A stretch of 64,000 nucleotides of DNA from Bacteroides cellulosilyticus (GTDB lineage Bacteria; Bacteroidota; Bacteroidia; Bacteroidales; Bacteroidaceae), in the NCBI RefSeq assembly GCF_020091405.1, contig NZ_CP081903.1:6262501-6326500 (forward strand), read 5' to 3'. The notes beneath the pieces are model-generated. The model did no database searches and was not told the DNA's origin. It saw only the letters and a list, made by a program, of their open reading frames with translations. Of the stretch, positions 18,234-43,556 are shown one piece after another. Each line of letters starts with the position of its first letter. Position 1 is the stretch's first letter. A program made the translations under genes and the position numbers.

Positions 18234-18387
18234 TTTAAAATGATGTATTGATATTATGTAAAAACAATCAAATCATGAACAACTCAAAAAGAATCTTAGG
18301 TGAAATCCCTTGTTAATTTAAGTCTAATTTAAAAAGTAGTTTAATGAAAAAGAAAGAACACAAATCGAAATCGCTGTTATGGCGGTT
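18234..18387 (+). repeat. Left 154-bp inverted repeat (IR-L)
   Basis: Base for base the reverse complement of 43403-43556 (coordinates sum to 61790 throughout, no mismatch or gap). It covers 110 bp of AT-rich leader, the susC start codon at 18344, and 44 bp of coding sequence for the first 14 residues. Identity ends sharply: AGACAGAG precedes it here and GTTTAAC precedes the right copy, and codon 15 onward differs. It contains no TAnnTTTG box, so promoters must lie outside it. Confidence 0.97.
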
Positions 18388-21300
18388 ATTTTTAGTTCTA
18401 TTAGCATTGGTCTTGAGTATTAATCTTATGGCTCAAACAATTACACAGACAGGTGTTGTTGTTGACCAAAACAATGAACCAATGATTGGCGTAACTGTAC
18501 AGGCGAAAGGTACAGCAACTGGTGGTATTACAGATTTAGATGGTAACTTTACCATTAAATGCAATAAAGGTGCCACATTAGTTTTCTCTTTTATGGGATA
18601 CAAAACAGTTGAGCACAAAGCAAGCGGTCAAAGAATGAAGATTGAAATGGCTGAAGATGCTCAGGCTCTGGATGAAGTTGTAATTGTCGGTTTTGGTTCA
18701 ATGAACAAAAAACATATTACAGGTTCAATGACTTCGGTTGATTCTAAAATCTTGGAAGAAAAGAATTCAGTGAATGTTTTTGATGCATTACAAGGAGCTG
18801 CTCCTGGTATGCAAATCGTATCAAACTCCGGAGCCCCCGGTTCTTCTTCATTTGTATCTATCCGTGGTGCCTCTACTTTTAGTGATGAAGGTGTATCTCC
18901 ACTGTATGTTGTAGACGGAGTAGTTGTTGATAACATTGACGATATTTCTGCCAATGATATTAAGCAAATTGACGTTATGAAAGATGCAGCTTCTTCGGCT
19001 ATTTATGGTGCTCGTTCTGCAAATGGTGTAATATTGATTACCACAAAATCCGGTGAATCTGGCAAGCCGCGCATTGATGCTCGTTATCAACATTCTTTCT
19101 ACACTGTTGCGCGTAAATTACCTCAGGTTAATGCGTTTGAAAGCCGTTTAAGTATGGCAGCTTCCGATTTAGATAATCCATCTAAAACTTTGGAGAAATT
19201 TTCTGCACGTACAGACTCTGTAGGTATGCAATATAGTACAAACTATTATTATCAGGATTTATTGTTCCGCACAGGCGGACGCGATGATGCCAGTGTACAA
19301 ATTAGTGGTGGTTCCAAAGGATTCAAGTATCGTGCATCTTTGAACTACATTGGTGAAAAAGGTGTGATTTTAGAATCAGGAAATGATAAGTATACCGCTA
19401 ACGTCAATGTCGATTATGAACCTTGGAAAAACATAAAGTTTACTACACGTGTTCGTCTGAGTTATAATAAGACTAACAATATTAAAGAAAGTGTTTTGCA
19501 GGATGCTATGCGCCGTGACCCTGATATGATTATCTGGTATCCGGATGGTGAATTGATTCCTTATTATTCCTCTGGCGGACGTCGAAATCCGATCGCTGAA
19601 TTGAAACAAAAGTTAGATGAACGTTCGACTTATAGAGGCAACTTCTATCAGGGTATAACATGGACTTTCGCTCCTTGGTTAAGATTAGATGCTGACATTT
19701 CTGCTGATTATACATCTTATAGAAATCTGACATTCTCATCAAAATATCTCGAAGGAAGTGATAATGGAAAGAACACTGGTGCAGATAAAAGTCAACAAAC
19801 CTGGAAATATGCAGGTGAAGCTTATTTAAACTTTAATAAGACAATTGCTAAAGATCATTCTTTGAGTGCTATGGTCGGTAGTAGTTTTGAAGTTAGTAAT
19901 CAATTGGCATATAATATAGCCGGTTCGTTTTTCCTCTCCGAAGATATTCATTATATGAATCTGGCGACTGTAAAAGATGTGAAGAACATCTATACAAGTG
20001 GTTGGGATGAAGCTATGGTCGGTGTTTTCGGACGTGTTGTGTACAGTTGGAAAAGTCGTTATACAATAACTGGTAATCTTCGTTTTGACGGTTCTTCCCG
20101 TTTCGGTAAGAATAACCGTTGGGGATCTTTCCCTTCTGTTTCTGCTGCATGGCGTATTTCAGATGAGCCATTTATGCGTTGGTCGAACAATATTCTTACG
20201 GATGCCAAAATCCGTGCCAGTTATGGTATTACTGGTAATGACAAGATTGGTCGTTATGAATCACAAACTGTTTATACAGCCGGTTCTCAATATTATAATA
20301 CGGTTGGTGGTATTGTACCAGCATCTAAATATGGTAATCCCGATTTAAAATGGGAACAGACCAAACAAACCAATATTGGTGTGGATTTGAGTTTCCTGAA
20401 TGGACGAATCATGTTTGTTGCTGATTATTACATAAAGAAAACAAGTGATCTGCTTTCTGACTATAATCTCCCGAGTACTACTGGTTATGATAAGATGCGT
20501 GTTAACTTAGCTAGTATTGAAAATAAAGGTGTTGAATTATCTCTTACCGCCACTCCGCTCAGAACACGCGATTTTAGCTGGAGTACAACCATTAACTGGT
20601 GGAAAAATGATAACAAAATTCTTGATTTGGCACGTGAGGACTATATTAGCAGCGCTTGGCTGATTGCAGCTGGAAAGCCCGCCGGTTTGTTCTATGGCTA
20701 CAAAAACTTAGGTGTGTATGAATATGATGCGAGCAATGCCTGGAGTCAGGATTTTAAGACTCGTCTGACGCCAGTTTTCAAACGTGATAATGAAGGTAAT
20801 GTTGTTATAGGTTTGAACGGTCAACCGACATTGCTGAAATATCTGAATTCCGATGGTACTGAATATACAGGTAAAATTGCCCAAATGAAAGTGAATGGTG
20901 TAATTGCCGGTGGTGGTGATGTGATATGGTATAATAAACCTAACGAGAATGGAGAATTAGATGATGTGATTAACTCTAATGACCAAACAGAATTAGGTAA
21001 AGCTAATCCAGACTGGTTTGGTTCTTGGGGCAATACTCTTACATATAAAGACTTCTCTCTTTCATTTAACTTTTATGTTAGCTGGGGTGGACAAGTTTGG
21101 AATGACTTGAAGCGTTATTATAGTTCATGGGGTGGCAACACTCATAAACAGACTCCCGAATATATTATGCAAGGATGGAAATATCCGGGTGAAATTACGA
21201 GTTGGTATGCTTTGAATTCCAAACAACGTAAAACCAATAACCACTCTATGAGTTTGAGTGATCAATTCTTGGAAGATGCTACATTTATTCGTTTGCAATC

Positions 21301-21514
21301 TGTTCGCCTTAGCTATAGTGTGGATCCAAAATTCTTGGCTAAAACTCCGCTTCGTTCAGTACAAGCATATATTTATGGTAACAATTTGCTGACTTGGACT
21401 AATTATACAGGTTATGATCCAGAATTGAGTGGTGGTGTTTTAACTCCCGGTAAAGATAGCTCTAAATATCCTCGTAAACGTGAGTTTGGTATCGGATTCA
21501 ATGTTGGATTTTAA
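18344..21514 (+). CDS. SusC-like TonB-dependent receptor 1 (left slot)
   Basis: A 1056-residue SusC/RagA outer-membrane transporter. Order: N-terminal signal anchor region (about 1-30, MKKKEHKSKSLLWRLF shared with SusC2 through the inverted repeat), carboxypeptidase-regulatory-like domain (about 35-105, GVVVDQNNEPMIGVTV), TonB-box-like DEVVIVGFGSM, plug (about 120-235, with PLYVVDGVVVDNI and ANGVILITTKSG) and a large beta-barrel ending in FGIGFNVGF. With SusD1 it would import large oligosaccharides using TonB energy. It heads a seven-gene + strand operon. No TAnnTTTG box or PUL operator is found between the recombinase stop and this gene, in contrast with susC2. Confidence 0.93.
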   Translation: MKKKEHKSKSLLWRLFLVLLALVLSINLMAQTITQTGVVVDQNNEPMIGVTVQAKGTATGGITDLDGNFTIKCNKGATLVFSFMGYKTVEHKASGQRMKIEMAEDAQALDEVVIVGFGSMNKKHITGSMTSVDSKILEEKNSVNVFDALQGAAPGMQIVSNSGAPGSSSFVSIRGASTFSDEGVSPLYVVDGVVVDNIDDISANDIKQIDVMKDAASSAIYGARSANGVILITTKSGESGKPRIDARYQHSFYTVARKLPQVNAFESRLSMAASDLDNPSKTLEKFSARTDSVGMQYSTNYYYQDLLFRTGGRDDASVQISGGSKGFKYRASLNYIGEKGVILESGNDKYTANVNVDYEPWKNIKFTTRVRLSYNKTNNIKESVLQDAMRRDPDMIIWYPDGELIPYYSSGGRRNPIAELKQKLDERSTYRGNFYQGITWTFAPWLRLDADISADYTSYRNLTFSSKYLEGSDNGKNTGADKSQQTWKYAGEAYLNFNKTIAKDHSLSAMVGSSFEVSNQLAYNIAGSFFLSEDIHYMNLATVKDVKNIYTSGWDEAMVGVFGRVVYSWKSRYTITGNLRFDGSSRFGKNNRWGSFPSVSAAWRISDEPFMRWSNNILTDAKIRASYGITGNDKIGRYESQTVYTAGSQYYNTVGGIVPASKYGNPDLKWEQTKQTNIGVDLSFLNGRIMFVADYYIKKTSDLLSDYNLPSTTGYDKMRVNLASIENKGVELSLTATPLRTRDFSWSTTINWWKNDNKILDLAREDYISSAWLIAAGKPAGLFYGYKNLGVYEYDASNAWSQDFKTRLTPVFKRDNEGNVVIGLNGQPTLLKYLNSDGTEYTGKIAQMKVNGVIAGGGDVIWYNKPNENGELDDVINSNDQTELGKANPDWFGSWGNTLTYKDFSLSFNFYVSWGGQVWNDLKRYYSSWGGNTHKQTPEYIMQGWKYPGEITSWYALNSKQRKTNNHSMSLSDQFLEDATFIRLQSVRLSYSVDPKFLAKTPLRSVQAYIYGNNLLTWTNYTGYDPELSGGVLTPGKDSSKYPRKREFGIGFNVGF

Positions 21515-21530
21515 TTAAAAAGATAAGAAA

Positions 21531-23078
21531 ATGAAGAAATATATAATTTTAGCTTTTGCAAGTCTTTTAGCTTTATCAAGTTGTGAGAGTTTTCTGGATC
21601 GGTCTCCTTTGTCAGACCTGTCTCCATCGAGTTACTTTAAAGATAAAGCTGAAATGAAGAACTGGAATGCAGGTATTTATGATGCATTTCAGAGTGCCCT
21701 TTCCAAGCGTCAGGTACTTTTTGGTGATGTTCGCTCGGATAATGTAACCGGTACATCTTACGAAGATTCAAAGATTTATATGAATGCTTTGATGCCCAAT
21801 ATTTCAGAAGCCAGTTGGGAACCTTTTTTCACTTGTATCTCCAGATGTAATATCGGTATTCAGATGTATCCGACAATTCCAAACATCTTAGAATCCGAAT
21901 ATGCCCCTTATATCGGACAATGCTATGCCATGCGTGCTTACCTCTATTTCTGGGGAACTCGAACTTGGGGAAAAATGCCGATAGTAACAGAACCATGGGA
22001 TGGGGCTTTAAATACGATATCCGTTCCTCGTTCCTCTTTAGAACAGGTAAAAGAACAGATATTATCTGACATTGAAAAGGCTATCGGTTACTTTAATCAA
22101 TCTGATACAAGTGATAAACTCTACTTAGGAAAGGACGCTATGTACGCTTTGTTGACTGAGGTTTATATGTGGTACAACGATTATCAGAACGCCCTGACTG
22201 CATCAGAACATTTTATCAATCACAAGACCCTTTCATTATCCAACGGAGAAATTGAATGGAAAAACATCTTCACTAATCCTACCGGTTCAAAAGAAGTAAT
22301 TTTTGCTATGGCATGGGATTATGAAACAGATGGCGCTTTGGCTGGTTGGCCGCAACTCTTAGGTGCAAGCAACACCAATAATGGTTATAGAATGGCAGAA
22401 CCTATTTTTAATGAATTCATTGATCGGTTACGTTCCGAAGAAGGTACTGACGCACGTTTTTGGAACACAATTGATACAGTGAAGGTATACTACAAGGCAT
22501 CTCGTGTTCCTTTGACGTATGCAAGTTATACAGCCGGTGTAGAAAGTGTAAATAAATGCATCAAGTATAGTAATATAGATCCTGAACGCGAATACGATTC
22601 TTCTAATCAGGTGTATAAATCATACTTTGCTGTGATGAATACAACAGACAGTGAATTTTCTCTGGTAATGATGCGTATGGCAAACATCATGTTACTTCGT
22701 GCAGAAGCTTTAAATAAATTGAACAGAGGAGATGAAGCTCTGAATATTGTCAACGAAATTCGTAGCCGCGTTGGCTATTTAAAAGATGCTAAAGAAGAAG
22801 TATCCAGTGTCAATAACGTAAATGAAGTAGAAAGCATTATTTTACAAGAAAGACAGTTGGAGCTTTATGGCGAAGGGTATCGCTGGTTTGATTTGATGCG
22901 AACCGGACACTTAATAGAAGTTATGGATCCGATCTATTCCGCACGTCAGGAAGCTGCAAACGTGACAGTTACCGGTTTCGGTGATGAAGGGACTAAATAT
23001 TGGCCGATTTATTATGGCGAATTTGAGTCAAATAAAGCGCTTGTCGGGGATCAAAATCCGCCTTATACTGAACGTTAA
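21531..23078 (+). CDS. SusD/RagB-family surface glycan-binding lipoprotein 1
   Basis: A 515-residue lipoprotein with lipobox ALSSC followed by ESFLDRSPLSDLSPSSYF, the classic SusD start. TPR-like helices include YIGQCYAMRAYLYFWGTRTWGKMPIVTEPW and the C-terminal motif LILQERQLELYGEGYRWFDLMRTG (read here with I and L variants). SusD proteins form the lid of the SusC barrel and capture glycan at the cell surface. It begins 16 bp after susC1. Confidence 0.93.
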   Translation: MKKYIILAFASLLALSSCESFLDRSPLSDLSPSSYFKDKAEMKNWNAGIYDAFQSALSKRQVLFGDVRSDNVTGTSYEDSKIYMNALMPNISEASWEPFFTCISRCNIGIQMYPTIPNILESEYAPYIGQCYAMRAYLYFWGTRTWGKMPIVTEPWDGALNTISVPRSSLEQVKEQILSDIEKAIGYFNQSDTSDKLYLGKDAMYALLTEVYMWYNDYQNALTASEHFINHKTLSLSNGEIEWKNIFTNPTGSKEVIFAMAWDYETDGALAGWPQLLGASNTNNGYRMAEPIFNEFIDRLRSEEGTDARFWNTIDTVKVYYKASRVPLTYASYTAGVESVNKCIKYSNIDPEREYDSSNQVYKSYFAVMNTTDSEFSLVMMRMANIMLLRAEALNKLNRGDEALNIVNEIRSRVGYLKDAKEEVSSVNNVNEVESIILQERQLELYGEGYRWFDLMRTGHLIEVMDPIYSARQEAANVTVTGFGDEGTKYWPIYYGEFESNKALVGDQNPPYTER

Positions 23079-23105
23079 TAATGAACTATTTAAATAGAGT
23101 GAATA

Positions 23106-23792
23106 ATGAAACTAGAATATTATAAAAAAGCATTAGTCTTGATGGTAGTTCCTTTCCTTTTCGCGAGTTGTGAATTGCTGGGATTGGATTATCAAGATTC
23201 ATATGATTATGATTACGATGCTGGCATGCCTAGTAATAAAATAGATATGTCTGCTTTTGAATTCATCAAATCCCGTACAGATATATTTTCTTTATTAGAG
23301 GAGGCGATTCTATATGCTGGAGTTGAAAATGAATTCAAACAAAGTGGAATGAGTTATTTATTACCGACGAATACAGCATTCAACTCAGAGACAAGTACTG
23401 ATTTAAGTTACTTCCAAACTCATCAATTAACTTATATAGATGATGAGACAGGAGAGGTGGTATCGTACGCACCGATTAGTATGACAGCTTATCCGAAGGA
23501 ACAAGTTAAAGAGTTTTTGCTTTATCACATTGTAAAGGGTAAGTACACCTTTACCAATCTTCCGGCAGAACCAACTTGGTTTGAAACGGTAGCTACAGCT
23601 GATACCGCTAAAATAAACATGTACTTATTGAAAGACCGTAATCCTAACATTGTATTTAACAATTTTGATGGTCATTACAAGTCTTCCATCAAGCCGCGTA
23701 CTTCCAATCTTTACAACTCTGACGGATCATATATGCATGTGTTGGATAGTTGGTTGGATCGCCCTACAAAAGAACAACTGAATATGAAATAA
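23106..23792 (+). CDS. Fasciclin-domain (FAS1-like) lipoprotein 1
   Basis: A 228-residue lipoprotein (lipobox PFLFASC). The domain shows the FAS1 pattern: ALEYAG-like helix (FSLLEEAILYAGVENEF), the LLPTNTAFNSE strand and LLYHIVKGKYTF near the end, with a conserved C-terminal SDGSYMHVLDSWLDRPT. FAS1 lipoproteins are frequent third genes after SusD and are thought to act in surface adhesion or glycan binding. Its counterpart in the right operon is at 37969-38679 in the same position. Confidence 0.78.
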   Translation: MKLEYYKKALVLMVVPFLFASCELLGLDYQDSYDYDYDAGMPSNKIDMSAFEFIKSRTDIFSLLEEAILYAGVENEFKQSGMSYLLPTNTAFNSETSTDLSYFQTHQLTYIDDETGEVVSYAPISMTAYPKEQVKEFLLYHIVKGKYTFTNLPAEPTWFETVATADTAKINMYLLKDRNPNIVFNNFDGHYKSSIKPRTSNLYNSDGSYMHVLDSWLDRPTKEQLNMK

Positions 23793-23810
23793 CCTAAAAA
23801 GATTACGATT

Positions 23811-24902
23811 ATGAAATATATTTATCAATTTTTTCTTGTTCTACTTTGTGCTTTCTCTTTTGCAAGCTGTGGCGATGATGATTTCATCGAGATAGACTCG
23901 CTGAGCGCAGATGGAGATGAATTCTACTGTAATCAGAAAGTGAAAGTATGGATGTGTGTACGTTCCAGTGATTTGTGGCACACGGACTATGAATGGAGCT
24001 GCGATGCAGGTTCACTAACCCAGCCGCAAGGTTTAAATGAAATGACTTGGAAGGCACCAAGTAGTCCAGGAACATATACGATTACTTGTCGTGCCAGCAT
24101 TGGTGGTGAGTCGCAAGTTCGTTCTCATAAAATGTATGTTTCCAGTTACTATTTTGACAAATTTGAGAAAACGCCCCATTCCCTATCTTTGCAAAGTAGT
24201 ACAACCGGAACACTGAAAAAGGAGTCTGATGGTAATCAATATCTACAGGCAAAAGTGAACTCTGCTGCAGAGGTTACGCGTTATATTCGTCGTGCTTTCG
24301 GTGACAATACATTATATACCCCGTTTAGTACCCGTATGAAACTTGGTTTTGAATCTAATGTTCCTAATATGCAAGAAATTAAGGTCGGCACTAAAACAGG
24401 AAAACCGACGTTGGAATATCGTTGGAATTTACGTTCAGACGATTCCAATAATGGCTCTTATATAAACCAGATTCGTTTATTATGGTATCCGGGAAAACTA
24501 AAAAGTGGAGAAGTATACCCGGTTGTACCTAATGAGGGTGTTACGCCTGAAGGTACTACCGATTATAATGTACAGTTAATTGTGCAATACACATCTGCTG
24601 CAGGTAAAAAAACGACGTATAATGAATACCATAACCTGAATACGATGAATACATTCACTGCTAAACTTTATCAGACAGTATCTATGTCTGTAGATGAAAG
24701 TGAAGCAATAATAGTACATGTAGCTGGTCAGGAAGTATTAAAGAGTACCATCTTAAGTGACGCCCGTATTCAGAACGCTTGTGAAGGCCGTATGTCTATC
24801 AATAACTGGGAACTTTATATACCTAATGGTAATGGAGGTACAAATATTCCGCTAGTGTATATAGACGATGCTTATGCTTCAAATACAGGTATTCTAGAAT
24901 AA
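23811..24902 (+). CDS. Surface lipoprotein with Ig-like and lectin-like domains 1 (candidate glycan-binding protein)
   Basis: A 363-residue lipoprotein; the lipobox SFASC is followed by GDDDF, the acidic signal for surface export in Bacteroides. An Ig/PKD-like domain (about 25-100: YEWSCDAGSLTQPQGL, then MTWKAPSSPGTYTITC) precedes a beta-rich concanavalin-like region (about 110-360). No catalytic motif is seen. In SusC/D operons such fourth genes are usually surface glycan-binding proteins (SGBP). The paralogue at 36981-37949 shares the Ig domain but the C-terminal part is strongly diverged, fitting different ligand preference. Confidence 0.7.
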   Translation: MKYIYQFFLVLLCAFSFASCGDDDFIEIDSLSADGDEFYCNQKVKVWMCVRSSDLWHTDYEWSCDAGSLTQPQGLNEMTWKAPSSPGTYTITCRASIGGESQVRSHKMYVSSYYFDKFEKTPHSLSLQSSTTGTLKKESDGNQYLQAKVNSAAEVTRYIRRAFGDNTLYTPFSTRMKLGFESNVPNMQEIKVGTKTGKPTLEYRWNLRSDDSNNGSYINQIRLLWYPGKLKSGEVYPVVPNEGVTPEGTTDYNVQLIVQYTSAAGKKTTYNEYHNLNTMNTFTAKLYQTVSMSVDESEAIIVHVAGQEVLKSTILSDARIQNACEGRMSINNWELYIPNGNGGTNIPLVYIDDAYASNTGILE

Positions 24903-24917
24903 TATTCATTCATTAGA

Positions 24918-25006
24918 AGAGGTTGTGTTAAAAATGCTGTGCTATGTGCGGGCGAATGATTATTCGCCCGGAATATACTAAGTGACTTTTGACACACCTC
25001 TTTTTT
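24918..25006 (+). terminator. Composite intrinsic terminator/attenuator inside the left operon
   Basis: Inner hairpin CGGGCGAAT / ATTCGCCCG (24949-24957 with 24962-24970, 4-nt loop) sits within an outer stem (AGAGG and TGTGT at 24918-24928 with ACACACCTCT at 24992-25001), followed by a run of T (25001-25006). It separates the receptor/binding genes from the plug, MG2 and lyase genes. The right operon has a terminator at the equivalent place (36908-36959). Confidence 0.75.
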
Positions 25007-25019
25007 AATTCTTGTAATT

Positions 25020-25685
25020 ATGAAAAAACGATTATTTCTTGTTTTGTACACATCACTTTTTGTTGTAACGATCTTTGGTCAAGACTTTAAGGGAGTTATT
25101 GTTAATGCCAAGCAACGTCCTTTAAAAGGAATGAAAGTTTGGAAAAAGAATACCACTGAAAGTGTAAAGACAGACAATATGGGAGTATTCTCTTTTTCCG
25201 GTTTACAGCCCACAGATACATTGGTAGTATCTATATCTAAAAAAGAAGAAGCAATTATCCCTATTGGTAAGCTATCTCAAGCTTCTCTTAAATTGGAAAA
25301 GAAATTTTTCATCTTATTCGATGGACAGAAAGAAGAAAAAAGAGAATACACGAGGATTCTCCGTACAAGTTATAACTCAAATGTATTGACCCGTGAGCAA
25401 ATTCAGAAGTTATCAGCCAATAGTATTTACGATCTATTTAAAGGTGGAGCTATTCCGGGGGTAACAGTGAACGGAGACAAAATTACAATTCGCGGAGGAA
25501 GTTCATTTGATTTGGATAATGAACCTTTATTTGTTGTCGACGGTACTTTATACGAAAGTAGCAGTGAAGTAGATGGTGTTGTATCAATCAATGATATAGA
25601 CAAGGTAGAAATACAAAAAGATGGTGCAGCTTATGGTATGAAAGGAGCTAACGGTGTTATAATTATTACTACAATTAAGAAATAG
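25020..25685 (+). CDS. Barrel-less TonB-receptor plug protein 1
   Basis: A 221-residue exported protein (signal peptide to about residue 21). It has a carboxypeptidase-regulatory-like domain (about 22-95) and then a complete SusC-type plug (about 105-221): TREQIQKLSANSIYDLFKGG, ITIRGGSSFDLDNEPLFVVDG and a final GMKGANGVIIITTIKK. It stops exactly where a SusC would begin its barrel. A paralogue of the same length occupies the same place in the right operon (36219-36890), so this is a conserved gene, not a truncation. Function unknown; it might compete for or prime the SusC channel, or act in the periplasm. Confidence 0.75.
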   Translation: MKKRLFLVLYTSLFVVTIFGQDFKGVIVNAKQRPLKGMKVWKKNTTESVKTDNMGVFSFSGLQPTDTLVVSISKKEEAIIPIGKLSQASLKLEKKFFILFDGQKEEKREYTRILRTSYNSNVLTREQIQKLSANSIYDLFKGGAIPGVTVNGDKITIRGGSSFDLDNEPLFVVDGTLYESSSEVDGVVSINDIDKVEIQKDGAAYGMKGANGVIIITTIKK

Positions 25686-25712
25686 TATATAACTATTAAA
25701 CACGCATGCACT

Positions 25713-28520: not shown

Positions 28521-28551
28521 GCAGCTTATTTTTTATTTTAAATTTGATATC

Positions 28552-29577
28552 ATGAAGCGTATAAAATTATTGTTAGCACTATTTGTATTGGCTATTCTTT
28601 TATGTGGAATAAGTTCTTGTTCAAAAGAAGAAAGTGATAAACCGGATACCGAACAGCCCGACCCAGAACCAACTCCTGAACCTACCCCGGACCCAGAACC
28701 GGACCCAGACCCGGAACCGGATGACTATAAACTACAGGGAAATATGCAAGCTGCACGACAACTGGTTGGAAAAGATTATTCGGAAATCCATAAGTATATG
28801 CGCTCTTATGGATGGGACTATTCTGAACATCCTAATTCATCTGATAAAGATCATAAAGACGGAGTGCATTGCGAAGTTATATATGACGAAGCGATACAGC
28901 AATATGTTTTCAAGTTTATCAGCCATGCCAATGCTGATGCCCTTGACGGTGACCGAGGGAAACTGGAAGACCGCCAACGTAATGAAATGAAAACACAAAC
29001 GACTGCTGCCTGGTATAAATTGAATGGTAACTGGGATGAATGGCAACGCCTTGAATGGAAATTCCGTATTCCGAAAGATTTCAGACCTTCTACAAGTTTC
29101 TGTCATATTCACCAATTAAAGGCACAGGAGGGCAATAATGGTTCTCCATTGATAACCATAACTCCCCGCTGCAATAGCAATGGCAGTAACCGTCGTGTAC
29201 AAGTGATCCATACCGGTGATAATACTGCTACTACTAAAGGAACAATCATAGACAATCTGCCATTGTCTGATTTTGAAGATGAATGGATACAAGTAGAAAC
29301 AGAGATGCACTTTACGCACGATGGGGCATTCAGTATTAAGATGACACGTATCAGTGATAGTAAAGTATTAGTTGATAAGGCTTTTAGCAATATTGACCTA
29401 TGGCGGAAGGGAGCGATAAGTATCCGAAATAAATTTGGCATTTATCGTAGCTTTGGAAGAAAGATGGAAAGTACTGATGATCGTCCTACCAATGGAATAA
29501 AAGATGAGACTTTGCAACTGGCAGATTTCAAGGTTTATGAGAAAAATACAAATCCCAAGCCTGAAAGCCACGATTAG
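28552..29577 (+). CDS. Jelly-roll polysaccharide lyase-like lipoprotein (stand-alone domain)
   Basis: A 341-residue lipoprotein (lipobox GISSC followed by SKEES, a surface-export type start) with an extended acidic Pro/Glu/Asp linker (about residues 30-60) and one catalytic-looking domain (about 62-335). Landmarks are GWDYSEHPN, DGVHCEV, DRQRNEMKTQT, GNWDEWQRLEWKFRIP, HIHQLKAQEGNNGSPLI and NKFGIYR. The all-beta pattern and HQLKAQ motif suggest a concanavalin-like lyase of the heparin lyase I/PL7/PL13/PL20 type; the family is not certain. The same domain forms the C-terminal half of the protein at 33580-36039, ending with a nearly identical tail. Confidence 0.65.
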   Translation: MKRIKLLLALFVLAILLCGISSCSKEESDKPDTEQPDPEPTPEPTPDPEPDPDPEPDDYKLQGNMQAARQLVGKDYSEIHKYMRSYGWDYSEHPNSSDKDHKDGVHCEVIYDEAIQQYVFKFISHANADALDGDRGKLEDRQRNEMKTQTTAAWYKLNGNWDEWQRLEWKFRIPKDFRPSTSFCHIHQLKAQEGNNGSPLITITPRCNSNGSNRRVQVIHTGDNTATTKGTIIDNLPLSDFEDEWIQVETEMHFTHDGAFSIKMTRISDSKVLVDKAFSNIDLWRKGAISIRNKFGIYRSFGRKMESTDDRPTNGIKDETLQLADFKVYEKNTNPKPESHD

Positions 29578-32871: not shown

Positions 32872-32898
32872 ATGTATTTATTACTTTTTTGTGATATG

Positions 32899-33073: not shown

Positions 33074-33289
33074 CCATCCGTTTTTTCAGAACAGATGGTC
33101 TATCTGACCGGAACAGACGGTCTGTTTACCCAAAACAAACCATGTATTTCAGCTAAACATACCATCTTTTCGGGCAAAACTAACATTCTTTTTCGTGATA
33201 AGGCTACACCTTATGCCCCAAAAGGTGTAGCTATGTTGCATAAAGGGTGACACCATACGGGATATAAGGTGTAGCCCTTTACTTATCGG
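33074..33289. repeat. Degenerate tandem array, 22-bp period (array 2, two blocks)
   Basis: Block A has units starting at 33074, 33096, 33118, 33140, 33162 and 33184 with loose consensus CCATCT-nTTT-n5-AAACA-nA. Block B has units starting at 33202, 33224, 33246 and 33268 sharing the word GGTGTAG or its complement CTACACC, which make hairpins such as CTACACCTT with AAGGTGTAG. The period is 22 bp in both although sequences differ. Confidence 0.65.
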
Positions 33290-33524
33290 GCTATATTCTT
33301 TTCTGGTTGCATCGGGAAAGTATTCGGGCGGAGAGTGTTCTTTTTATGCATGAAACGCTCAATGACTATCGTTTTCACTTAAGATATGATAGTCATAGCA
33401 CCCCTTTTTATTATTTCGTCCCCTTTCCCTTTCTTTCCGCATTTCTTTAATGGAGAATGCTTGCGTTCTTTCTTTTTCCTCCACCGTCGGGCGGAAAGAA
33501 AGGAATCTGAGACAATAGGATTAT

Positions 33525-33548
33525 CATTTTGTCAGCCTTGACAAAATG
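33525..33548. terminator. Hairpin after the fused lyase gene
   Basis: Perfect 10-bp stem CATTTTGTCA / TGACAAAATG with a GCCT loop, 32 bp past the stop at 33580. No T-run follows on the minus strand, so it may protect or process the RNA rather than terminate it. Confidence 0.45.
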
Positions 33549-33579
33549 CTCTTTTAGAGGTCGTCATCTGAAAAACCGG

Positions 33580-36039: not shown

Positions 36040-36084
36040 TCTTTGTCTTATTTTCAGGTTTACACTTTGTATTCCAACAATAGA

Positions 36085-36153
36085 CAAAAGTAGGCAAAGG
36101 CAATAAATAGCATTATAACTAATGTCTCAAATTCTATAACTAATATCTATTAA
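36085..36153 (-). promoter_or_regulatory. Candidate HTCS-controlled promoter of the fused lyase gene
   Basis: Half-sites TGTCTCAAAT (36123) and TATCTATTAA (36144) start 21 bp apart on the + strand; 30 nt nearer the gene is CAAAAGTA (36085-36092), i.e. TACTTTTG on the minus strand, an exact -7 box identical to that of the GH2 gene at 16725. Confidence 0.65.
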
Positions 36154-36218
36154 TTGATTTATTTGAGAGAATAAAGTATCCATTCAGGGATTTTCATGGC
36201 AGAAGAGTTAGCGAAGGA

Positions 36219-36890
36219 TTATTTTATCCGTATGATGATAACGCCGTTCGCTCCTTTCATACCATACTCAGAACCATCTTTTTTTATTTCGACTTCTCGT
36301 ATATCTTCTACTGACACTGCGTTATTAGCTTCTTCCAATGAATTATATTCGGTTCCGCCTACAATGAATAGCGGTTCGGTACTGAGAGCAAAAGATGAAC
36401 TTCCCCGTATTGAGGCCTTCATTTGTCCATCAGAATAATTAATCTGCAATCCGGCAATATTACCTCGCAGCAAATCTATTAAATTGTTGACGTCTAATTG
36501 CCGGATTCTCTCATAAGTGATAATATTGCTGTTATAGGTTTGTTCCGGTATTTCCTGATACATGCAGGTTATTGTTTTTTCATTCGTGGCATAGCGCAAT
36601 GAATTCTTTCCCAGATGTATGGTATAGGTTGGAATTCCCGACATAGGCACATAAGCCACTAACTTCCTGTTAGGATATACCAACAGTGTATCGCCTGTTT
36701 TTACATTATCCAGTTCAAATGTACCTTTTGATGAAGTGGAAAGCATCTTCATGCGCCCCTTTACACGCATTTTTATCTTCTTGGCCGGTTTACCCTTTTC
36801 ATTCAGGATAACTCCTGCCACATTGTCCTGTGCTGTTCCCACTAGTGAAATCAGAATAGCTGATAATAAAATCAGAATACGATGTTTCAT
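36219..36890 (-). CDS. Barrel-less TonB-receptor plug protein 2
   Basis: A 223-residue exported protein, paralogue of the one at 25020-25685. It has a signal peptide, a carboxypeptidase-regulatory-like domain (AGVILNEKGKPAKKIKM) and a plug (about 110-223: TYERIRQLDVNNLIDLLRGN, KASIRGSSSFALSTEPLFIVGG, GMKGANGVIIIRIK), again ending where the barrel would start. It is preceded by the terminator at 36908-36959. Function unknown. Confidence 0.75.
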   Translation of the reverse strand: MKHRILILLSAILISLVGTAQDNVAGVILNEKGKPAKKIKMRVKGRMKMLSTSSKGTFELDNVKTGDTLLVYPNRKLVAYVPMSGIPTYTIHLGKNSLRYATNEKTITCMYQEIPEQTYNSNIITYERIRQLDVNNLIDLLRGNIAGLQINYSDGQMKASIRGSSSFALSTEPLFIVGGTEYNSLEEANNAVSVEDIREVEIKKDGSEYGMKGANGVIIIRIK

Positions 36891-36907
36891 ATCTTTATAA
36901 TATTAAT

Positions 36908-36959
36908 AAAAGGAGAGAATATTCAAACACAATATGTATGTCCAATATTCTCTCCTTTT
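36908..36959 (-). terminator. Intrinsic terminator/attenuator inside the right operon
   Basis: Perfect 16-bp stem (36908-36923 with 36944-36959), 20-nt loop, then TTTTATT on the minus strand. It lies directly after the fourth gene of the right operon, the same position as the terminator in the left operon, but with unrelated sequence. Confidence 0.8.
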
Positions 36960-36980
36960 TCGATGAATGAGATTGATTAT

Positions 36981-37949
36981 TTATCTTTCACGAGGTTCGG
37001 CTGTGCAGATTGTACCATTATCAAATACAAATAGATTATCGGCAAAAATAACGACTTTGTTGTCCAATCCGAAACCAGAACGAGATACATAATATTGATC
37101 CTGCACACTGGCTAATGCACTGCTCTCAAAATATTTCTTGCCATCATAGTAAACAATGAATTTCTTATTTGCATCGATTGATACCGCAATAGTTTTGAAA
37201 GCATCCTTTTTAAACTTAAAGTTTGCCGTATCCGTACCTTCATCTATTGTAATATCTTCCGTCTTTCCTGTTGTCACATTGGTTGTGGTATAAGTTGCTT
37301 TCCATGCTCCTGTTTTGGGGTAGGTTGTAAAGCATGCCTTAGTTACATAAAACGTGGCATTATTGATACGGGCAAATTCAATACGGATCTCTGCAAAATT
37401 ATTATCTGAAGGACAAGCATTTACTGCATAGTCCACTTGTGTGGAGAAAGGAACAGATACATTATCCCAGCTACGGGCAAAACGTCCGTCAGCTTTAGTG
37501 GAAGTTAATTTAACTGCACCATTCGTTCCCTTATTAGCGTCAAATGCTACTGTCATAGATGCATTAGACCAGCCTTCATTATAATAAGGAGTCTCAAAGT
37601 TAGAGTAAAACAGTTCATCCAGTACAGTCATTTTGGAACGACGGGTTTCTTTCTTACCACCACATTTTACCGTGCACCAAATTTCATAAGTTCCGGCTTC
37701 ATTCGGAGCTTTCCATACATTCTCAAATAGTCCTTGAGGATTTGTCATGCTTCCACCATCGCATCCCCATTCATAACTAACATCTGTATCATCACTGAGT
37801 TCGGCAGAAACAAATACTTTCACCACATCATTACGGCAAAACTTTGTGCCGAAAGTGTTCAATGAAACAATATTTACACTGTCATCGTCTGAACAGGAAG
37901 TGAAGATCACACATATTAATATAGCAATATTGAATACTAGTTTTTTCAT
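36981..37949 (-). CDS. Surface lipoprotein with Ig-like and lectin-like domains 2
   Basis: A 322-residue lipoprotein; lipobox VIFTSC is followed by SDDDS, a surface-export type signal. The Ig/PKD-like domain (VSYEWGCDGGSMTNPQGLFENVW, then KAPNEAGTYEIWC) matches the left paralogue; the C-terminal region (about 105-322, FYSNFETPYYNEGWSN, YDGKKYFESSALA) is a LamG/concanavalin-like fold much less similar. Inferred surface glycan-binding protein. Confidence 0.7.
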   Translation of the reverse strand: MKKLVFNIAILICVIFTSCSDDDSVNIVSLNTFGTKFCRNDVVKVFVSAELSDDTDVSYEWGCDGGSMTNPQGLFENVWKAPNEAGTYEIWCTVKCGGKKETRRSKMTVLDELFYSNFETPYYNEGWSNASMTVAFDANKGTNGAVKLTSTKADGRFARSWDNVSVPFSTQVDYAVNACPSDNNFAEIRIEFARINNATFYVTKACFTTYPKTGAWKATYTTTNVTTGKTEDITIDEGTDTANFKFKKDAFKTIAVSIDANKKFIVYYDGKKYFESSALASVQDQYYVSRSGFGLDNKVVIFADNLFVFDNGTICTAEPRER

Positions 37950-37968
37950 ACGTTTCTATATTATTAAT

Positions 37969-38679
37969 TTATTCTTGACCCAAAAAATATCTCGATGGGC
38001 GAGGTTGCCACCAGTCAGATACATGGATATAACCATCACGTGCATGAATGTTAGTGGTGCGGCAACTACCGGAAGATGCAGCTAACAATCCTCTAAAATT
38101 CCATTCAAAATTATTCAATTGAAGCGGCAGGTTACGGTCATGTCCGGCCTTGACACACATTACTGCAGTATCTCCTTGAAGTGTCTGACCATCTTTGTTG
38201 TAGGAAAAGCTACCTTCTCCATAAGTCCCGATCCAACGGTCCGAAGAATCTATATTAAAATATGACCATTCTCCTCTTACAATATGATAAGTCAGCAATT
38301 CTTTTACCACTTTCTTGTCATATTGCTCCCACGCAGTAGCAGCTGCGGCTTCCGTAGCTCCTGGAAGCATCACCGGATTTTTCTTCCAAAAACAGTTATC
38401 CCCACTGCTAAGAGCGCTATTGGTCAGCAATATATGCGTATTTCCTGCTTCTTTATACAAGTCTTCAATTCCTGCATACTGAATACCTTCAATTAAAGAA
38501 CTGAATATATCAGGACGGCTCTGGATAAATTCCCAGATTGTCATATTTACCTTATTATCCGCTTTTTTTGCTTCATATTCCTCGTTGCTTTGAAAATCAA
38601 GGTCAAACAAGGTGCATGAACTCAGTGAAATGCAAAATAAGGCCAGACTTATAAAATATCTATAGATTTTCATATTCAT
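37969..38679 (-). CDS. Fasciclin-domain (FAS1-like) lipoprotein 2
   Basis: A 236-residue lipoprotein (lipobox CISLSSC) paralogous to 23106-23792: IWEFIQSRPDIFSSLIEGIQYAGIEDLY, ILLTNSALS, LLTYHIVRGEWSYF and GYIHVSDWWQPRP at the end. Third gene of the right operon, 20 bp after susD2. Confidence 0.78.
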   Translation of the reverse strand: MNMKIYRYFISLALFCISLSSCTLFDLDFQSNEEYEAKKADNKVNMTIWEFIQSRPDIFSSLIEGIQYAGIEDLYKEAGNTHILLTNSALSSGDNCFWKKNPVMLPGATEAAAATAWEQYDKKVVKELLTYHIVRGEWSYFNIDSSDRWIGTYGEGSFSYNKDGQTLQGDTAVMCVKAGHDRNLPLQLNNFEWNFRGLLAASSGSCRTTNIHARDGYIHVSDWWQPRPSRYFLGQE

Positions 38680-38699
38680 TATTGTTTAAAACATTATTG

Positions 38700-40283
38700 T
38701 TATTCTTCATAAGGTTTGTTCTGTTGTCCTCTCATAGATGGGTTCTTACGGAATACATCCTGATTCAGAGGCCACAAAATTCTGCCGTAACCGCCAATCT
38801 GATTAGCTTCTTTCTCAGCACCAATAACAAAACCTTCCGGAATTCTCTGATCACCCAAGTCTTCATTCTGCAAATATGGATCTAAATATTCTTTTACCAT
38901 ATCATTGCGTACCAAATCAAACCAACGTTTACCTTCTGCCCAAAGCTCAATGGTACGTTCATCAATAATCAACTTAATCAAATCTTTCTCGGTTGGGTAA
39001 TCCTCTAAAACTGCAATATTTTCCCAACCTGCACGTTCACGTATTTGATTGACGATATTAATCGCGCCTTGATAATCTTTATGCGTACCTAATACTAAAG
39101 CTTCAGCTTTTAGCAACAAGATATCTGCTAAGCGATAAATTGGCATATGGGTAGAACATGATCCGTTAGCAACATAGGAATATCCGGGCCTGCCATCATT
39201 AGCAGTTGCTCCGTATTCTGTGAATTTCGGACATTTAATTTGGAAATTAGCGGCATTACCATAATCACCGTTCATTGCTTTTTCATACGATTCGTCTATC
39301 ATCTCGTCAGGAGTAATGAAATAGCTGATAGCAAATGTATCCATAATCATAGTGACGCGGTTATCTTCTCTCTTACGGGATACCAATTCCTTATAATATG
39401 CCTTTGTCGGATGATATCGGATCGTGTTTGAACCTGACGCAAGTTCCTGAGCATATCCAAAGCCGTTGCTATCTTCTTCATAGTTCCAGAAAAGATTGAA
39501 TATCATTTCTTTAGAACTTGATGGATTCAAAAACATACTGGAATAGGTAGATGCCGGTTCAAGACTATATTTATAGTTTGTCAGTAAGTCATTAGCTGCT
39601 ACGAGCGCTTTGTCATATTCCTTATACCACATTAATACATCTACACGCAATGCCATAATAGCTCCGCGATTTAAATAGTACTTACTGGCACTGGACATAT
39701 CTGTAGAAGCACCAATATGTTCTAATGCTTTCTCTATATCTTCCAGAATAAAAGCTTTCAATTCTTCTACAGAAGTTCTTCCATAATATCGTTCCTGCGA
39801 AGAGACATCTTCCATGGGTTCAGTGATTTTAGGTACACCGCCCCATACACGTATAGCATAAAAATACATCAATGCACGCATTGCATAAGCCTGACCTAAA
39901 TATGGAGCAGATACAGAACTGCCTATAGGGCTGGTGGGAATATGCTTAATAGCCGCATTCGCACGATAAATAGTTTTATAAAGGTCACTCCAACTGGAAG
40001 AGCCCGACTGAGAGTTCAAACCATTGTATAGTAAGTTACGGTCGTAAGCCGTTCCACGTTCTGCATACACACCGGAACGAAGTTCGCCCCAATAGAACCA
40101 GTTTGTACGTAAGGTAGATTGCAGACCGTCATACATACCTGCATTCCAGGTTTTCAAATCCTGTTCTGAAGTCCAGAAAGTCTCGCCCGACAGCGAACTT
40201 TCGGGTTGTCTGTCTAAGAAGTTCTCACAAGAAGTGAGCAGCAGACTGACACCAGCGATCAGTAAATATTTTAATCTTTTCAT
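38700..40283 (-). CDS. SusD/RagB-family surface glycan-binding lipoprotein 2
   Basis: A 527-residue lipoprotein with lipobox LLLTSC then ENFLDRQPESSLSGETFW. SusD helices include YLGQAYAMRALMYFYAIRVWGGVPKITEP and LIIDERTIELWAEGKRWFDLVRND near the C-terminus. It pairs with SusC2, 13 bp upstream, as the capture lid at the cell surface. Confidence 0.93.
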   Translation of the reverse strand: MKRLKYLLIAGVSLLLTSCENFLDRQPESSLSGETFWTSEQDLKTWNAGMYDGLQSTLRTNWFYWGELRSGVYAERGTAYDRNLLYNGLNSQSGSSSWSDLYKTIYRANAAIKHIPTSPIGSSVSAPYLGQAYAMRALMYFYAIRVWGGVPKITEPMEDVSSQERYYGRTSVEELKAFILEDIEKALEHIGASTDMSSASKYYLNRGAIMALRVDVLMWYKEYDKALVAANDLLTNYKYSLEPASTYSSMFLNPSSSKEMIFNLFWNYEEDSNGFGYAQELASGSNTIRYHPTKAYYKELVSRKREDNRVTMIMDTFAISYFITPDEMIDESYEKAMNGDYGNAANFQIKCPKFTEYGATANDGRPGYSYVANGSCSTHMPIYRLADILLLKAEALVLGTHKDYQGAINIVNQIRERAGWENIAVLEDYPTEKDLIKLIIDERTIELWAEGKRWFDLVRNDMVKEYLDPYLQNEDLGDQRIPEGFVIGAEKEANQIGGYGRILWPLNQDVFRKNPSMRGQQNKPYEE

Positions 40284-40296
40284 AAGTTGTTACAAG

Positions 40297-43200
40297 TTAA
40301 AAGTTAACATTTAGTCCGAAACCAATTTCTCTTGCGGTAGGATATCGTCCGTTATCAATACCCGGACGCAGCACATTGCTATTGGAAATACTTGACGGAT
40401 CAAATCCTTTGTATTTTGTCCAAGTAAGAAGGTTGTTTCCATATACATACAACTGAAGATCGGAGATATGGAACCGTTTGATAAGATTACGGTCAACCCT
40501 ATAAGCTAAACGAGTATTTGTAAGGCGAATATAGTCGCCATCTTCCAGGAAGAAAGAAGAAAGTTCACGCGCATTGTTTACACCAGTTGTTGCTTTGGCA
40601 CTACTATAAACTTCTGTTATTTGTCCCTGATATTTCCACAAACGATAACAGTCTCTTGCTAATGGAGTCATATTCGATGATGAATTTTGTAACAGGTCAC
40701 GGCGTTGTTTATTATAAATCTTGTTACCGAAACTTCCATAAAACGAGAAGGATAATGAAAAATTCTTGTAATTCAAATAGTTAGTCCATCCCATATACCA
40801 TGTAGGCATGCCATTACCCAAGATACGTCTGTCCGAATCACCAATTACACCATCATGATCCAAATCATCCCAGATTATATCACCACCTTTGCTCACTGAA
40901 CCGGCGGTAGTCATTTGACCTACATCACCTGTATATTTCTGACCACCTTTTGTCTCATAGTGTAAGAAAATGGGTTTACCGTTAGAACCATAAATATAGT
41001 TATTATAGTTATTCGGATCTCTTTGATACACAGGAACCAAACGATCACCAAACGAACCGTCGCTATTCTTGATATATGCATTTGCTTCATCTGTGGCATA
41101 AATGCCCAAAGCTTTTTGTCCAAACCATTGTCCCAAAGGCGAACCTTCTTCAATTAAGTATTTACCATCTTCCACAAAACTCTTGCCTTCCGATAGCTTT
41201 AATACTTTATTCTTGTTTTTAGTATAGGTAAGAGTGGTCTGCCATGAAAAATCACGAAGCTGAACAGGAGTTGCATTTATTGTCAGCTCAATACCTTTAT
41301 TCTCAATATTACCCATATTGACACGCATACTACTAACACCTAATTCTGAAGGGATAACTTCATCGGCCAACAAATCTTTAGTCTTCTTGATATAATATTC
41401 CGCTACTAAAGAAACTCGTCCGTCAAGTAATGTCACATCCAAACCAATGTTAGTTTGTTCTGTTGACTCCCAACTTAAATCAAGGTTAGCCAACTTATCC
41501 GTTTGGGTAACTCCGATGACGCCATTATAATATGAACCAATATTATATTGGTTAATTGATTCATAGTTACCTACGCGTTCATTACCATTTGTACCCCAAC
41601 TGAGTCTGAATTTAGCATCAGTCAGTACAGGCTTTGCCCAGTCAAAGAAAAATTCATCAGAAGCGCGCCATGCAATAGATGCAGACGGGAATAGTCCCCA
41701 ACGGTTACCAACGAAACGTGAAGAACCATCATAACGAAGATTTGACGTAAATATATATTTCCCTTTATAACTATAGTTTACACGTCCGAAGAAAGATGCC
41801 ATAGCATGACTTTCATAAGTGGTCTTAGTTTTTGTCAGGTCTTTCACTTGCTGAGCGTTAGAAGTTAGGATCGATTCTGATACATAATCGCTACCTTCTA
41901 AGTGGAATGTCTCATCACGCCAATCCTCGACACTGGTACCGAACATAGCGCCTACTGAATGATCTTTGAAATCTCTGGCAAAGTTAATGTAGGTTTCCGC
42001 AGATAATTTACGAGGGATTTTTGCATCATTAGAACCGGAACTGATACCTGAAGAAACCAAATCTCCACGGATTAACTGGTCATTACGGTTAACTTTCAAT
42101 TCTCCCTGTACATTGGCAGACCAGATTAAGCCTTTCATAAGCTGAAATTCTGCTCCCTGATACAAAGAAACTGAATAAGAAACACTTTTATTAACACGTT
42201 CATATGCATCAGCTATCGGATTGAACTGCCCACCATTATTATATACATAAGATCCATCAGGGAAGTAAAGTGCCATTTGTGGCGGACGACGTAATGCCTG
42301 ATTAATTACACCACCAGTATTGATGTTATTCTTATCCGTATAAGCCACATTAAAGCGGCTCATTAATTTGAAACGATCCGACACAGCGAAATCAACGTTA
42401 GTTCTAGAAGTTATACGATTCAAATAACTATTTAGTACAATACCTTGTTCGTTCAAATAACCAATACTTGTATAATAACTCATTTTATTCTTTGCACCAC
42501 TGATATTAATATCAACTTGGTTAGAATGAGCCATACGAGTAATCAAATCCTGATAGTCGTTATCAGCCATGAAGTTAGGATGCAAAGAGTCATTACTGGT
42601 TTTCCATAAAGAAGTTCCTGCATTACCGGCTCTTTCTTTCAAATAACGTTCAAATGCATTTGCCTGATCAATCTTATGTCCTAACTTCTTCATTGAGTGG
42701 TTGTACTTCACTGAAATTCTAGCAGGAGCACCTTCTTTACCACGTTTAGTACTGATGATAATTACACCAGCAGCCGAACGTGAACCATAAATAGCGGCTG
42801 AAGCAGCATCTTTCAAAATTTCCATGCTTTCAATGTCGGCAGGATTGATAGTAGAAATATTATCTACTGCCACACCGTCTACAATGTATAACGGAGTAAC
42901 ACCTGATCCCATAGTAGAAGCACCACGAATCAGCATAGTACCTGTATCCCCAGGAGCACCTGAGTTATTGGAAATCTGCAGACCGGATACTTCCCCCTGT
43001 AATGCTTGAAAGATATCAGTCGGTTGGCGTTCTTCAATCGTTTTGGCATTTACAGTGGAGATAGCACCTGTCAAATCTCTCTTCTTTACCGTACCGTAAC
43101 CTATGACTACAACTTCATCCAATGCTTGGGCGTCTTCCGTCAGTACTATATTCATTTTAGTACCCATTGCTACCTGCGTTGCATCCTTATAGCCAATATA

Positions 43201-43446
43201 GCTAAATTTCAATGTAGCACCTTTGTTACATTTAATAGAGAAGTTACCATCAATATCAGTAATTGTCCCATTACTACCTTTCATAACGGAAACCGTTACT
43301 CCAATTAGAGGTTCCCCATTTTGATCGACAACCGTACCAGTTGTTGTTATTTCCTGAGCATATAGATTAAAACTCATAGAAAATGCAAACAGAACGAGGA
43401 GAAACCGCCATAACAGCGATTTCGATTTGTGTTCTTTCTTTTTCAT
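40297..43446 (-). CDS. SusC-like TonB-dependent receptor 2 (right slot)
   Basis: A 1049-residue SusC/RagA receptor. The first 14 residues are identical to SusC1 because both lie in the 154-bp inverted repeat; thereafter the two are homologous but clearly diverged (TTTGTVVDQNGEPLIGVTVSVMKGS against TQTGVVVDQNNEPMIGVTV, with the longer stretches split here). Order: regulatory-like domain (about 32-105), DEVVVIGYGTVKKRDLTGAI TonB-box region, plug (PLYIVDGVAVDNIS, AAGVIIISTKRG), barrel ending FGLGLNVNF. Unlike susC1 it has an HTCS-type promoter just outside the repeat (43583-43651), so in the orientation shown it is the operon in the regulated slot. Confidence 0.93.
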   Translation of the reverse strand: MKKKEHKSKSLLWRFLLVLFAFSMSFNLYAQEITTTGTVVDQNGEPLIGVTVSVMKGSNGTITDIDGNFSIKCNKGATLKFSYIGYKDATQVAMGTKMNIVLTEDAQALDEVVVIGYGTVKKRDLTGAISTVNAKTIEERQPTDIFQALQGEVSGLQISNNSGAPGDTGTMLIRGASTMGSGVTPLYIVDGVAVDNISTINPADIESMEILKDAASAAIYGSRSAAGVIIISTKRGKEGAPARISVKYNHSMKKLGHKIDQANAFERYLKERAGNAGTSLWKTSNDSLHPNFMADNDYQDLITRMAHSNQVDINISGAKNKMSYYTSIGYLNEQGIVLNSYLNRITSRTNVDFAVSDRFKLMSRFNVAYTDKNNINTGGVINQALRRPPQMALYFPDGSYVYNNGGQFNPIADAYERVNKSVSYSVSLYQGAEFQLMKGLIWSANVQGELKVNRNDQLIRGDLVSSGISSGSNDAKIPRKLSAETYINFARDFKDHSVGAMFGTSVEDWRDETFHLEGSDYVSESILTSNAQQVKDLTKTKTTYESHAMASFFGRVNYSYKGKYIFTSNLRYDGSSRFVGNRWGLFPSASIAWRASDEFFFDWAKPVLTDAKFRLSWGTNGNERVGNYESINQYNIGSYYNGVIGVTQTDKLANLDLSWESTEQTNIGLDVTLLDGRVSLVAEYYIKKTKDLLADEVIPSELGVSSMRVNMGNIENKGIELTINATPVQLRDFSWQTTLTYTKNKNKVLKLSEGKSFVEDGKYLIEEGSPLGQWFGQKALGIYATDEANAYIKNSDGSFGDRLVPVYQRDPNNYNNYIYGSNGKPIFLHYETKGGQKYTGDVGQMTTAGSVSKGGDIIWDDLDHDGVIGDSDRRILGNGMPTWYMGWTNYLNYKNFSLSFSFYGSFGNKIYNKQRRDLLQNSSSNMTPLARDCYRLWKYQGQITEVYSSAKATTGVNNARELSSFFLEDGDYIRLTNTRLAYRVDRNLIKRFHISDLQLYVYGNNLLTWTKYKGFDPSSISNSNVLRPGIDNGRYPTAREIGFGLNVNF

Positions 43447-43556
43447 TAAACTACTTTTTAAATTAGACTTAAATTAACAAGGGATTTCACCTAAGATTCT
43501 TTTTGAGTTGTTCATGATTTGATTGTTTTTACATAATATCAATACATCATTTTAAA
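43403..43556 (-). repeat. Right 154-bp inverted repeat (IR-R)
   Basis: Perfect reverse complement of 18234-18387. It includes the susC2 start at 43446 and 44 bp of coding sequence. Recombination with IR-L would invert the 25,015 bp between them and rejoin each susC body to the same first 14 codons in frame. Confidence 0.97.

Follow-up and report, generated by a model that had tools for sequence, protein, structure and literature searches.

Tsr0667 of Bacteroides fragilis is a tyrosine recombinase. It controls SusC/SusD shufflons in this species, acting at three SusC/SusD clusters and at nine other regions (PMC11852207, PMC4747536). In Bacteroides intestinalis APC919/174, large clusters of TonB-receptor and SusD genes invert, often with a dedicated integrase alongside, as in PVR3; uptake genes of PVR3 were upregulated when its inversion was complete, and long reads of this species revealed recombination hotspots, mostly at such clusters, in every culture tested (PMC8375218). 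Nutrient-receptor (SusC/SusD) shufflons under one transcription factor have been described in Bacteroides thetaiotaomicron (PMC12548429). Inverton group 131 shows enrichment close to TonB-receptor and SusD genes; one of its members, about 650 bp long and located in Bacteroides cellulosilyticus DSM 14838, undergoes orientation drift in mice (PMC11892184). Larger segments are credited in a review with carrying genes into expression loci (PMC12632263). The present work concerns a stretch of 64,000 nucleotides from B. cellulosilyticus (assembly GCF_020091405.1, contig NZ_CP081903.1, positions 6,262,501 to 6,326,500), hereafter the window, in which a segment of about 25 kb (18234–43556), bounded by inverted repeats, carries two susC/susD operons, A and B, and occurs in both orientations among close relatives. 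We consider it probable, with good confidence, that this segment is a recombinase-driven switch by which either of the two operons comes to stand at a single predicted promoter next to the enzyme genes of a polysaccharide utilization locus (PUL).

The mechanism class is already known, since SusC/SusD shufflons and integrase-flanked cluster inversions have been published for B. intestinalis, B. fragilis and B. thetaiotaomicron. An earlier reading of the same DNA, the original prediction, had seen possible novelty in the swap of whole operons; that novelty is diminished, because whole-cluster inversions are on record (PMC8375218). The locus contributes an architecture with two clear ends, opposite orientations that occur naturally in near relatives, and cassettes comprising whole operons, lyases included. 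As in the PVR-type inversions of B. intestinalis, a whole nutrient-uptake cluster would invert beside an integrase gene, and compared with that description, as far as it was available (PMC8375218), the window adds the anatomy of the repeat, the exchange of cassettes between species and the side of the promoter. With the B. fragilis shufflons it shares a tyrosine recombinase, inverted repeats and alternative SusC/SusD sets, but in contrast to the multi-site Tsr0667 system, as described in the same partial sources, the recombinase gene lies next door and the repeat occurs twice in the genome. Three hallmarks of a SusC/SusD inversion shufflon are present: two susC/susD sets share an inverted repeat at their 5′ ends, a tyrosine recombinase gene is predicted at the locus from Pfam domains and is complete in 8 of the 158 genus genomes, and both orientations exist, between species representatives. 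The Tsr0667 site consensus, which we take to be AGTYYYN4GDACT, has no match in the repeat when up to one mismatch is allowed, and its 13 matches in the window compare with a chance mean of 16.3; membership in the Tsr0667 regulon was rejected for its absence from the repeat. The group 131 member mentioned above comes from the strain that serves here as genome G042 and belongs to the same regulated gene class, and in the available description is much smaller than the segment of G042, which spans roughly 40 kb. Among the matches listed in our literature searches, none could be recognised as a paper dealing with this locus, which does not prove that none exists.

The inverted repeat and its boundaries

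The window's own genome (G000) is a single contig of 6.94 Mb. The left arm of the repeat (18234–18387, + strand) lies on the side of the recombinase gene and the right arm (43403–43556, − strand) on the side of a gene labelled here PelB, our own name for a 518-amino-acid protein with a weak hyaluronate-lyase-family match. The arms are exactly equal over 154 bp and the matching stops abruptly at each edge, in agreement with the original prediction of a perfect repeat bounding two convergent susC operons. Its proposed composition was likewise correct: a 110-bp leader is followed by the first 14 codons of susC-A, whose start codon stands at 18344, and by 2 further bases, the right arm forming the 5′ end of susC-B. 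A repeat search over the whole genome gave just two matches, the arms themselves. Beyond the repeat the two genes have diverged, also as had been claimed, with 44% amino acid identity between the proteins and identity at only 86 of the 191 fourfold sites after codon 20. The susC pair is thus old and its repeat identity is not explained by recent duplication; the fourfold sites were taken to rule out both this source and selection on the leader. Between the G000 copies and the 9 relatives' copies compared, identity is 89.2–96.8%.

The adjacent gene (16894–18126, + strand) encodes a protein of 410 amino acids with the Pfam domains Arm-DNA-bind_5, Phage_int_SAM_5 and Phage_integrase, and its end is separated by 107 bp from the start of the repeat, the distance given earlier for a tyrosine recombinase. 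By the catalytic motif that we take to apply, the candidate catalytic residues are presumably R253, R357, H380 and Y389. Eight matches were obtained in the PDB, the best of them to tyrosine recombinases with weak E-values.

Opposite orientations in related genomes

The repeat was searched in 158 Bacteroides genomes (E ≤ 0.001, up to 5 candidates scored per genome), one per species, and the comparison shows inversion between species representatives. Matches were found in 14 genomes: seven have copies at both ends (G000, G057, G086, G042, G117, G047 and G022), G043 has a single copy, and the remaining six have matches of only 28–80 bp. The contigs of G047 stop at the repeat, and cassettes were readable at both ends in the other six. 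Written as recombinase side/PelB side, the arrangement is A/B in the window and in G057, B/A in Bacteroides timonensis AP1 (G086), B/A2 in B. cellulosilyticus DSM 14838 (G042), where A2 is a diverged A with 62% amino acid identity in susC, C/B2 in Bacteroides oleiciplenus YIT 12058 (G117) and D/B3 in G022. In G043, a metagenome-assembled genome, the only cassette visible is C, on the PelB side, and the recombinase is truncated at residue 111.

The 25-kb segment therefore occurs in both orientations among close relatives, divided 2:2 among the four close genomes with A- and B-type cassettes. The original prediction had named a comparison with related genomes as a check, and the opposite orientations that it called for were found between G057 and G086, with the change-over at the repeat. 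In the blastn comparison the inverted matches cover 19,049 bp with 99.78% identity and 10,480 bp with 98.8%. They begin at the outer edge of the repeat, and the flanks outside align in direct sense.

Location of the joint

The two repeats of one genome are 100% identical in G000, 98.1% in G057, 95.5% in G042, 92.9% in G117 and 91.6% in G086. Perfect identity is therefore unnecessary, and the earlier claim of maintained identity holds for G000 but not for relatives, whose arms differ by up to 8% and show conversion-like patches. The PelB-side repeats of G057, there followed by B, and of G086, there followed by A, are identical over the 154 bp. The recombinase-side repeats of G000 (A) and G086 (B) match to position 97, after which come a 1-bp insertion and, from position 130, substitutions; past position 154, the A and B sequences go with their cassette. 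Since shared repeat haplotypes stand ahead of different cassettes, the joint lies within the repeat, probably inward of position 64, and haplotype tracking favours a crossover from position 65 onward. Four blocks, at repeat positions 4–36, 42–61, 65–96 and 98–125, show no difference within any of the five pairs compared. Haplotype switching and block conservation together point to a near-palindromic candidate crossover core, TTAATTTAAGTCTAATTTAA (left copy 18313–18332, + strand; right copy 43458–43477, − strand), of which the genome has two exact copies; the assignment is suggestive only, because AT-rich palindromes are common. A single short core as the exact crossover point was not retained, shared blocks and haplotypes permitting only a partial narrowing.

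A predicted promoter outside the segment

The opposite orientations support the proposed inversion, but the swap had been assumed to be symmetric, and the flanks are asymmetric. On the PelB side, a predicted Bacteroides-type promoter (43553–43586, − strand) is formed by TTTG (43586–43583), a 22-nt spacer and TAACTTTA (43560–43553), which extends across the repeat edge; transcription is predicted to begin near 43546. Upstream of it lies the conserved motif TTTGATACAATCTTTAAAT (43611–43629, − strand), a candidate activator site that is exact in all eight scored PelB-side flanks. All 8 scored PelB-side copies have the edge box TAACTTTA, the upstream TTTGTTTG and the motif, against none of 7 on the recombinase side, where the flank of the window (18127–18233, + strand) has neither the edge box nor the motif. 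A TTTG at a spacing of 22 or 23 was found in seven of the eight PelB-side copies, the top-scoring site of G047 being a different one, and the best PelB-side promoter scores 9 of 10 against the Bacteroides promoter consensus. The pattern alone is not significant, as 0.78 occurrences per window are expected by chance, and the weight of the promoter thus comes from its conservation and place.

Over the 158 genomes, exact matches to the 19-bp motif number nine, namely the eight PelB-side flanks and a site upstream of a susC gene in G035. Matches with one mismatch lie in G039 and G003, and within the 20 kb fetched at these two sites no gene of the locus was found except weak matches in G003 to the hybrid two-component regulator (HTCS) of the locus. 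With the promoter on the PelB side only in seven of the eight species read on both sides, the PelB side is likely a single expression site facing a silent site. A simple invertible promoter of the capsular polysaccharide type was rejected, because the segment, 25 kb in length, encloses the operons, and the best promoter prediction falls across the outer boundary of the repeat.

Further cassettes and probable exchange between species

G057 and G086 each hold A, B and C. In both, the susC/susD pair of cassette C belongs to about 5.4 kb of extra DNA, missing in the window at 36052–36191 (blastn gaps, gene map), and is located between the receptor genes of B and the downstream gene B6, which thus comes after a third susC. 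The C segment of G042 lies behind A2, inverted relative to B. A partial third copy of the repeat precedes susC-C in G057, G086 and G042, the window having two copies, and a longer one (repeat positions 12–151, 74%) stands ahead of susC-C in G022. The susC-C genes of G057, G086, G042, G117 and G043 are 95.7–99.9% identical, being internal in the first three and in an end position in the other two. The third susC of G022, cut by a contig end, is of type C (87–89% over up to 343 amino acids); the recombinase-side receptor of this genome was also considered for type C, excluded by its 32% identity to C, and named D. Counting A2, B2 and B3 with their types, each of A, B and C is found at both ends across the set, and the locus would appear to behave like a small shufflon of uptake operons.

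G057 and G086 differ least in B (0.06%), in C with the genes downstream of it (0.2%) and in the PelB flank (0.4%), and far more, by 9.4%, in the recombinase flank. For cassette A the difference is 1.2% over 10,480 bp, a second estimate of 3.3% being probably inflated by paralogue matching. As B, C and the PelB flank are nearly identical while the recombinase flank differs by 9.4%, the comparison points to part of the locus having passed recently from one species to another. In G042, about 9.6 kb of DNA (joined positions about 13400–23030) interrupts B6 at residue 231; this insert includes an HTCS-like gene with 27% amino acid identity to the HTCS of the window.

Distribution of the recombinase

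Full-length orthologues of the recombinase (at least 79% identity) are present in the eight genus genomes mentioned above, G000 included, and homologues of 42–61% in 16 more at the threshold used. The gene adjoins the repeat in seven of the eight, and in the eighth, G031, the contig ends 171 bp past it; all six loci with both cassettes readable have a full-length copy beside the repeat. A PelB-like gene was detected at the threshold used in 15 of the 158 genomes, seven of which have no recombinase match at threshold (G007, G035, G038, G091, G108, G118 and, with its truncated copy, G043). In the stretches fetched from the first six of these, a related cassette was seen in just G035 and G091, one in each; in G007, G038, G108 and G118 the contig ends or the neighbourhood differs.

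A TonB-receptor-type gene lies within about 1 kb of the recombinase homologue in 5 of 7 examined loci at 49–61% identity. Self-blastn at these seven loci found no inverted repeat of at least 40 bp at 88% or more, which led us not to extend the system to such homologues; shorter or weaker inverted repeats are present at three of them. A search of viral contigs with a 24-base repeat pattern gave no match.

Proposed switch and competing explanations

We propose a model in which the adjacent tyrosine recombinase recombines the two inverted repeats and flips the 25-kb segment. The crossover would take place in the inner repeat, at about positions 65–99, with occasional gene conversion of the rest, and inversion would bring operon A or operon B to the single predicted promoter beside the PUL enzyme genes. 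Either susC would still be in frame, as foreseen in the original prediction, since the leader and first 14 codons of both are part of the repeat. The promoter and the candidate activator site are predicted to sit beyond the PelB-side end of the segment, so that in the orientation of the window operon B would be switched ON together with the PUL and operon A would be OFF or low. A wider claim, towards which we lean with less assurance, is that a dedicated recombinase loads whole uptake operons singly into one regulator-controlled site, at least four receptor types (A, B, C and D) circulating across Bacteroides species through the same repeat sites while the main enzymes stay constant. The moved operons comprise the receptor pair, further surface-type proteins and lyases, about 11–14 kb each in the window.

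Several observations weigh against the proposed switch. The differences in orientation are those between species representatives, and the orientation of G086 was read from two contigs that leave a gap in the middle. The role of the recombinase is suggested by its position and conservation, and RecA acting on 154 bp could suffice. The PelB-side repeat of G000 has recombinase-side bases at positions 3, 37, 38 and 41, and the recombinase-side repeat of G042 has PelB-side bases at 37, 38 and 41, so that gene conversion is needed besides a single core crossover. Regarding expression, weaker promoter-like sites (7 or 8 of 10) exist on the recombinase side, and the stretch from the recombinase gene to the repeat yielded no terminator-like site, which makes read-through into the recombinase-side operon possible. 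In G031, both of whose contigs terminate at the repeat edge, promoter-bearing sequence, read by eye, comes after both the recombinase and PelB; both operons might be ON there, and the ON/OFF logic would not be universal. Finally, recombinase presence goes with two-cassette loci, but the association is suggestive only, because G035 and G091 are drafts of about 240 and 120 contigs and a second cassette could lie elsewhere in them.

Inversion by RecA-type homologous recombination between the long repeats, with the recombinase as a bystander or relic, would suit the 154 bp of perfect identity in the window, the conversion-like patches at repeat positions 3 and 37–41, and the flanks of G031, which by eye match each other from the repeat out through the promoter region, an outcome expected of homologous conversion. 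We regard it as unlikely, however, in view of the full-length recombinase that adjoins the repeat in all six two-cassette loci and of the two drafts with one cassette in view, G035 and G091, in which no recombinase was matched at threshold. Moreover, the arms of G086 share no identical run longer than 33 bp and yet its orientation is inverted with respect to G057, although their divergence may postdate the inversion. Less probable still is a frozen history, in which the species came to differ through rare inversions and switching at the locus has ceased in the window strain. The evidence of orientation, being between species only, is compatible with it, as is G043, whose truncated recombinase and one cassette in view indicate that the system can decay; but the exact identity of the G000 arms, noncoding part included, set against their lower identity to the copies of relatives, argues for recent exchange within the genome, and the 2:2 division of orientations also speaks against it. 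So does the ending of the G031 and G047 contigs at the repeat, which fits an assembly repeat, possibly of mixed orientation. The lowest probability, a very small one, is given to permanent expression of both operons, the repeat being a shared regulatory or leader sequence held identical by conversion: the two-sided promoter region of G031, the missing terminator-like site and the weaker recombinase-side sites would be accounted for, but the recombinase side is devoid of the edge box, TTTGTTTG and the motif in the window and six other genomes, and conversion alone would not invert 25–35 kb.

If the proposed switch is true, a gut bacterium would hold its main glycan-degrading enzymes fixed while randomising the displayed set of outer-membrane receptors. 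As SusC and SusD are surface-exposed to phages and the immune system, the receptor swap could be a way to alter this exposure without nutrient loss. The anatomy offers defined junctions for the polymerase chain reaction, and the species assembled in either orientation serve for comparison.

Gene content of the segment and its surroundings

Operons A and B are convergent and were assigned as putative operons from gene order. Operon A (18344–29577, + strand; open reading frames, Pfam) comprises susC, susD and the genes of a fasciclin-domain protein, A4, a plug-only protein, an MG2-domain protein and A7. The receptor module of operon B (36219–43446, − strand; open reading frames, Pfam) contains susC, susD, B3, B4 and the gene of a plug-only protein, and its downstream part (29850–36087, − strand; Pfam) encodes B6, a 622-amino-acid protein and an alginate-lyase-family enzyme. 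Both B6 and the 622-amino-acid protein have weak, below-cut-off matches to a hyaluronate-lyase family. The SusD, third, fourth and plug-only proteins of A and B share 32–40% amino acid identity, and the range over all paralogous gene pairs is 32–44%. The plug-only proteins (221–223 amino acids; 25020–25685, + strand, and 36219–36890, − strand) have CarboxypepD_reg and Plug domains without a barrel, and they are kept in the cassettes of relatives with 31–99% amino acid identity to A5 or B5. Residues 52–341 of A7 (28552–29577, + strand) are 72% identical to residues 545–835 of B6 (33580–36087, − strand); A7 looks like an internal-deletion form of a B6-like protein, and a similar shortened B6 occurs in G035.

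Upstream of the PelB-side repeat lies the PUL enzyme cluster (43751–56033, − strand), composed of PelB, GH95, PL8, GH88, alginate-lyase-family and GH2 members and a 424-amino-acid protein; a search of the PDB with the PelB-like protein gave no match. It is followed by the HTCS (56132–60238, − strand; Pfam Reg_prop, Y_Y_Y, HisKA, HATPase_c, Response_reg and HTH_18), which is likely the activator of the PUL, and a second GH88 gene belonging to the PUL is listed after it. This predicted gene content fits a uronic-acid polysaccharide as the target. Elsewhere in the window, another inverted repeat (7399–7496) has 48-nt arms that are 88% complementary, 2 nt apart and made of CACAGAGT-like units; it sits between a gene of the tRNA methyltransferase family (MnmA-like) and a gene for a Cys/Met-metabolism enzyme.

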